Shown here in pieces: positions 62,820 through 63,730 of a DNA stretch of 64,000 bases. The stretch comes from an uncultured Prevotella sp. GTDB taxonomy: Bacteria; Bacteroidota; Bacteroidia; Bacteroidales; Bacteroidaceae. A program made the translations under genes and the position numbers. Within the stretch, counting starts at the first letter, position 1, and every line of letters starts with the position of its first letter. The notes under the pieces are model-generated. The model did no database searches. It saw only the letters and a program-made list of their open reading frames with translations, and was not told where the DNA came from. Location of the stretch: NCBI GenBank assembly GCA_905233165.1, contig CAJODL010000001.1, forward strand, positions 62,001-126,000. Direction: 5' to 3'.

Positions 62820-63730
62820 TATTTCAACAACTGCAACATCCTCTCCGCATATCTTCTGCCTAAGATGCGATATCCCTCAGCCGTGAAATGCAGTTTGTCA
62901 GGCTTTCCTGGACATCCCAAAGACGATATTGGATATGCCGTAGGTATATTGTCGTGTATGTTGTCAATGATAGAATTGTGCAGATAGCAGCATCCACCGT
63001 CAATTTTTGTGAGCAGTTCTCCGACAAGCAATGGTACATCCTCTGCTTTCAGGCCAAGTTCATTCAGCATTCGGGTGTATATGAGATTAACACGAGAAGG
63101 CCACGTCTTCTGACCATTGTCAGTACAACCTTGATGCAAAAGAATACCCTTAATCACTCCAACTTTTTGGGCTTTTTTTGCCAACTCCATAAGCCTACGG
63201 AAAGGCTCATTGTTATAATCTTTGCAGAAACCCTTGAACCAGTCAGCACTTTTAGCTATCACGCTGTCTGTCTTATCCTCATCAAAGAGGTCAATGCTTG
63301 CGCCTCCCACTGCAACATTTATAACACCAACAATAATGGAATCGGGTAAATTCTCTACCATGGTACGTCCAAAATAATCTGCTGGGGTAAGGCCCGTCCA
63401 CGCACGACATAGCGGCGGCACAGCTATATACCACTTACCCTCCTTTCGTCCAGTATTTGGCATATCAACTCCAGCCATCATCAGAAAGCGTGGGGAAATA
63501 CCCATAAAATCCTGCTCTTCTACTTTCGCATTTCCCTCCATATTCGATTGTCCGAAACAGAGGTAAATGTGAAAGTTAGGATTAAACCCAGAGGGTTGAG
63601 CTATCTCACCAGCTACATTTCTTCCGTCATTAAAATTCAGCGCAGTATTCTTCTCATAGAAAGAACCTACTTCTTGGGCACTGATTTTAATCGCCAAGAA
63701 TAACGCCAGCAGCATTATACTTCTTACCAT
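62816..63730 (-). CDS. SGNH / sialate O-acetylesterase-domain (SASA, CE6-like) secreted esterase
   Basis: 304 aa; signal peptide [73 protein letters not shown]. Confidence 0.9.

Follow-up and report, generated by a model that had tools for sequence, protein, structure and literature searches.

Signal peptides apparently overprinted on a C-terminal tag in a xylan operon of rumen-type Prevotellaceae

Introduction

Can the same bases provide the C-terminal tag of one enzyme and the export signal of the next and, if so, which of the two came first? This question is raised by a gene junction in a 64,000-nt stretch of DNA from an uncultured Prevotella sp., hereafter called the window, where a 44-nt overlap had been predicted to encode a putative sorting tag in one frame and a Sec signal in the other. 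The host of the operon is a rumen-type Prevotellaceae. The surroundings comprise xylA, xylB, a GH43-type protein, a GH98 protein, an esterase, a GH30/GH43/CBM6 enzyme and a second SASA protein and, with gene names partly read off the ORFs, appear to form a xylan-utilisation cluster. Putative SusC/SusD-type proteins, recognised by reading the ORFs, lie further along in the window.

Results

The features on which the analysis bears are the following.

63687-63998, minus strand: C-terminal 103 aa, inside the window, of a GH98-family protein (PF08306, E 3.3e-53), ending in TGIREV and the tag
L002:1688-4861, minus strand: whole gene of this GH98-family protein, 1057 aa, full length only beyond the window
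63687-63779, minus strand: C-terminal tag of the GH98 protein, stop included, one of a family of about 12 such tags in the genome
63687-63730, minus strand: junction 1, a 44-nt +1 overlap of the tag end with a start codon and predicted signal-peptide n/h-region
62816-63730, minus strand: SASA-family (SGNH-type) carbohydrate esterase, 304 aa, with predicted overlap-encoded signal peptide (PF03629, E 3.7e-30)
59772-62819, minus strand: GH30-like/GH43/CBM6 xylanolytic enzyme, 1015-aa ORF, with tagged C-terminus
59772-59836, minus strand: junction 2, a 65-nt +1 overlap of the GH30/GH43 enzyme tag end with the start of the next gene
57944-59836, minus strand: SASA-domain protein with a GH2-type sugar-binding domain, 632 aa, predicted signal peptide inside the tag (PF03629, E 3.5e-18; PF02837, E 2.2e-6)

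The overlap at junction 1 is borne out in the sequence as originally described. The GH98 ORF ends in tag codons with its stop at 63687-63689, and the +1 frame opens at an ATG (63730-63728) into the esterase. This frame has the expected features of a Sec/SPI signal peptide, that is, a basic n-region, a strong h-region (maximal 10-aa Kyte-Doolittle mean of 3.25) and a cleavage site, the latter read by eye. The predicted cleavage at this site, between ISA and QEV, agrees with the Q-rule proposed for signal peptidase I of Bacteroidetes (PMC5837995). The esterase carries the GQSN nucleophile motif (CFGQSNMEG) together with the PF03629 domain, as do SASA carbohydrate esterases. Since its M6 is replaced by V or T in two relatives, M1 is the sole conserved start upstream of the catalytic GQSN. 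A start downstream of the overlap, which the original prediction had named as fatal to it, is thus excluded, none being conserved and none being possible without losing the catalytic serine motif. On the other side of the gene, the ORF of the GH30-like/GH43/CBM6 enzyme adjoins the esterase stop, with a 4-nt overlap if TTG is the start.

The overlap is more than a chance arrangement. Of 18,239 codon positions in the window's coding DNA, only 12 combine an ATG in +1 with a downstream frame that stays open and hydrophobic for 14 codons and has a K/R early on. Furthermore, in a search covering one genome per species for 85,462 species plus 399 genomes of the genus, junction 1 was recovered in four further Prevotellaceae assemblies (L076, L078, L079 and L088), with an overlap of exactly 44 nt each time; L076 and L078 hold the same junction-1 DNA as genomes G371 and G256. 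Pfam families are found on both sides of an overlap present in five assemblies, which gives coding evidence for the two frames. Junction 2 is 65 nt long in L078, L088 and the window, and the same layout is seen in the junction-2 DNA of G371 (L168). These constant lengths exclude a miscalled start as well as the sequencing indel that had been put forward as a refuting possibility. The clade comprises few assemblies, about 6, and most of them are metagenome-assembled. A strict tag pattern, narrow enough to miss some tags, matched only members of this clade among the 399 genomes of the genus, so that this form of junction looks clade-specific. More distant esterase homologues have unrelated signal peptides, outside any tag.

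A similar arrangement is found at junction 2, 4 kb downstream, where the tag of the GH30/GH43 enzyme lies over the start of the SASA protein. The inner ATG of the latter gene is lost in G256 and G371 and the outer one is kept; the upstream ATG was therefore taken as the start. The upstream genes of the two junctions are unrelated, and the start codons fall in different repeats of the tag motif (third [N/D]GK at junction 1, second at junction 2). In G371, the junction-2 tag is devoid of its NG (RKSKKYSASGANLY followed by a stop; RKSKKYSASG) while the overlap is retained. This could perhaps be an early stage of tag decay, and indicates that the constraint on the tag frame is uneven.

The C-terminal sorting tag of the original prediction is confirmed as a real family: about 25-30 conserved residues recur in about 12 copies in the genome, at the ends of mostly large proteins. 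For the sorting part of the claim, no sorting-domain model in Pfam or NCBIfam matches the tag, a weak test since the single classical-looking Prevotella control end (L080) was also unmatched. A comparison of the tag profile with the PDB returned nothing convincing among solved structures, and a text search of the open-access literature did not find the motif. The genome possesses the T9SS translocon gene sprA (TIGR04189, 2534 bits), the one component by which the T9SS machinery was scored as present. The role of the tag is probably surface sorting or anchoring.

Several features of C-terminal ends were observed besides. The upstream proteins of L080 (L080:3-4846) have classical-looking Prevotella ends, VYNLQGQRV...GGTYIIGGKKVVR, in which tag-like motifs occur in the opposite order; these ends and the tag both come after a TGI sequence. 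The linker between TGIRE and the tag (63687-63840; junction 2 of L078) is made of short tandem units, GGTCAAA or, in L078, GGTCAAT, and varies among relatives. GQRSKVKG-like peptides at 35069-35129 resemble this linker repeat, and in the region 33465-36136 of the window an ORF ending in KEVKGLKSKV overlaps the 35069 ORF within a similar repeat. The second protein of this other overlap probably starts at an inner MFNNLKYIIFFLCIILCGCKS lipoprotein signal.

The +1 frame of the tag resembles the start of a signal peptide, because the codons of [N/D]-G-K can give ATG-GNA-ARA (M-x-K/R) and those of K-K-Y-N-A-A-G can give R-S-I-x-L-L. Read in +1, the remaining tags of the clade frequently begin with M-[VA]-R-S and mostly meet a stop near the tag end, a notable near miss being MARNIMLPAL followed by a stop. 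The overlapping tags have ILGD, ILDD, LLGD, ILH, ILY or NLY in place of the usual terminal Lys. When tags were back-translated with random genome codons, an ATG with an open hydrophobic +1 frame arose in 5% and 15% of draws for the two junction tags and in 0.5% for a typical tag; in ordinary coding DNA, it occurs at 0.3% of positions, or 0.07% with an early K/R.

The direction of origin can be approached through one relative, L077 (RUG12014; G108), in which both upstream enzymes carry a Dockerin_1 domain in place of the tag (E 5e-12 and 3.6e-12). The first enzyme stops 14 nt before the next start, and the second just ahead of the conserved MTRLSFSG start. Both downstream signal peptides are homologous to the overlap-encoded ones and, read in the old tag frame, give ghost tags, YDKKYNAAGSTLGN and NDKVIIFRNDKRYSTSGSILY, each ending at a stop. 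In a scoring of 383 starts as tags, the ghosts reach 19.4 and 14.5 bits and unrelated signal-peptide-like ones 8.7 bits at most. The most conserved glycines of the tag are Asp in the ghosts, as would be expected of a tag frame set free. In the tree of the second esterase, L077 is nested among the bearers of the overlap (99/100), and grouping the others together gave an AU p of 0.048; in that of the first esterase the nesting is weakly supported (83/100, AU p 0.19). The best reading is that dual use was the ancestral state. Taken together, the ghost tags and the nesting of L077 argue that the signal peptides derive from tag DNA and not the reverse; they would have been overprinted on it, and the overlap would still be read in both frames.

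The replacement of the tag by a dockerin in L077 suggests that the two are interchangeable C-terminal modules. We also observed that Dockerin_1 matches number 38 in G108, where the tag gave only two matches, both weak; the corresponding figures in G000, G256 and G371 are 18-24 dockerins and 9-12 tags. The G108 lineage as a whole may have exchanged one C-terminal module for the other; an orthologue search there found no clear orthologue of another tagged protein.

The suppression of synonymous changes at the junction, a check proposed with the original prediction, was found at both junctions among four assemblies bearing the overlap. As a proportion, synonymous differences in the esterase frame amount to 0.17 in the 44-nt overlap versus 0.62 in the rest of the gene, and at junction 2 to 0.21 versus 0.74; equally low windows elsewhere number 1 of 274 and 0 of 472, respectively. 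Control 5' ends gave 0.42-0.54 (GH98), 0.59 (GH30/43), 0.25-0.31 (xylA) and 0.25-0.43 (xylB), the suppression being thus milder at the neighbouring GH98 and GH30 signal peptides (0.42-0.59) than at the xylA and xylB 5' ends (0.25-0.43). Because neighbouring 5' ends are also reduced, part, although not all, of the drop may be a general 5'-end effect, and the suppression expected from selection on both frames is to be read with this reserve.

Discussion

The overlaps, their conservation, the ghosts and the loss of the terminal Lys are directly visible in the sequences. We consider it highly probable that the signal peptides were born from tag DNA by +1 overprinting, that both frames have been kept since, and that the tag frame was released in the dockerin lineage. 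In the ancestor of this small rumen-type Prevotellaceae clade, two genes of the xylan operon would have been placed directly behind tags in +1 phase, probably through deletion of the spacer and of the old start. Such a deletion best explains why the signal peptide is chimeric, with a tag-derived n/h-region and an ancestral cleavage region: the tag DNA would have supplied the start codon and the n- and h-regions, and the cleavage region at junction 1, SAQ-EV, would have remained that of the ancestral esterase. Indeed, AQ-[E/N]V is common to more distant esterase homologues. Both frames would then have been maintained, and the terminal Lys, whose codons tend to introduce a charge or a stop when read in +1, gave way to Ile-Leu-Gly-Asp or Ile-Leu-His. 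A dockerin would have replaced the tag of both upstream enzymes in one descendant, after which the tag frame decayed and the DNA was left only as signal peptide. As for expression, some ribosomes would most likely translate the tag as the end of the GH98 protein and others would start at the inner ATG, with translational coupling being likely and the esterase presumably being secreted by means of the overlap.

One may wonder whether two separate births are needed. Gene conversion of a tag/signal-peptide cassette could have copied one overlap from the other, a question of the number of births and not of the tag origin. The two overlaps lie in one operon, are 75% similar over 77 nt, share the same phase and have alike I-L tag ends; however, their start positions, lengths, upstream genes and cleavage regions all differ, and we find such copying rather doubtful.

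Another possibility is that the signal peptides were indeed overprinted on the tag, but that the tag end is no longer needed and selection acts on the signal-peptide frame only. Supporting this idea, the tag was dispensable in L077 once a dockerin was present, and the junction-2 tag of G371 is eroding (KSKKY). On the other hand, the junction-1 tag residues, glycines included, are retained in all five bearers of the overlap, the signal frame shows synonymous changes 3 to 4 times less often than other parts of the gene do, and visible decay of the tag frame is limited to the ghost and, partly, to G371. We therefore hold such a relic tag to be unlikely, and retain the reading in which both frames have been maintained.

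The reverse order, with an older esterase signal into which the upstream gene was later read, thereby making the tag end, could appeal to the loss of a stop with read-through, a common origin of same-strand overlaps. Nevertheless, we reject it as very improbable: the tag belongs to a family with multiple copies in the genome and the genus, it is encoded together with its in-register stop by signal-peptide DNA at two unrelated genes, the signal peptides of homologous esterases elsewhere are unrelated, and at junction 2 L077 takes a nested position instead of a basal one. Finally, long same-strand overlaps are often start miscalls, but an artefact of annotation or sequencing, be it a wrong start or an indel splitting one gene, is hardly credible here and was rejected by comparison of the five assemblies, which agree, with no other conserved start and with both ORFs being full families with their own stops.

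As judged from its sequence, the junction is thus a real, conserved double-coding site and a new form of overprinting with a readable direction of origin. The gain of a new export signal is rarely caught. At this locus one can still see the DNA that served as donor, the state in which it is used twice and a lineage that gave up the donor function but retained the signal; together they provide a direction of change, an intermediate open to testing and a natural control. The locus also illustrates how identical bases can serve both as C-terminal tag and as N-terminal export signal, which limits the evolution of each. More tentatively, and with somewhat less than even confidence, one could imagine that new signal peptides can be drawn from the tag family at any time, since its conserved residues would bring the +1 frame close to a ready-made Sec signal and any gene that comes to lie behind a tag in the correct phase would be exported; that two such births occurred independently in one operon; and that the tag acts as a sorting or anchoring signal, as yet undescribed and exchangeable with dockerin-like domains.

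A literature search in an open-access library found no precedent for an overlap-born signal peptide. One study is said to describe out-of-frame remodelled genes in E. coli. Parallels can nonetheless be drawn with known systems. The ompR-envZ overlap (4 bp; PMC3843671) likewise joins operon neighbours on the same strand with plausible translational coupling, but the present overlaps, of 44 and 65 nt, encode two recognisable targeting-type elements and not a stop and start within a few bases. As in the overprinting of an E. coli orphan gene (PMC4683798), a new coding sequence lies in another frame of an existing gene; here, however, overprinting is limited to a targeting segment, which became attached to an old enzyme, and the ghost left after loss of the parental frame gives the direction. 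Gene fusions born by deletion, some of them out of frame (PMC12803068), share the joining of gene ends by a deletion, which in our case is a presumed step, whereas here both genes survive and the product is a replaced signal peptide. Lastly, the tag is akin to the C-terminal sorting domains of the T9SS (reviewed in PMC10202324 and PMC5445135) in being C-terminal on many secreted enzymes of a sprA-bearing Bacteroidota genome, but differs from them in its mere 25-30 or so conserved residues, which match none of the Pfam or NCBIfam models of such domains.
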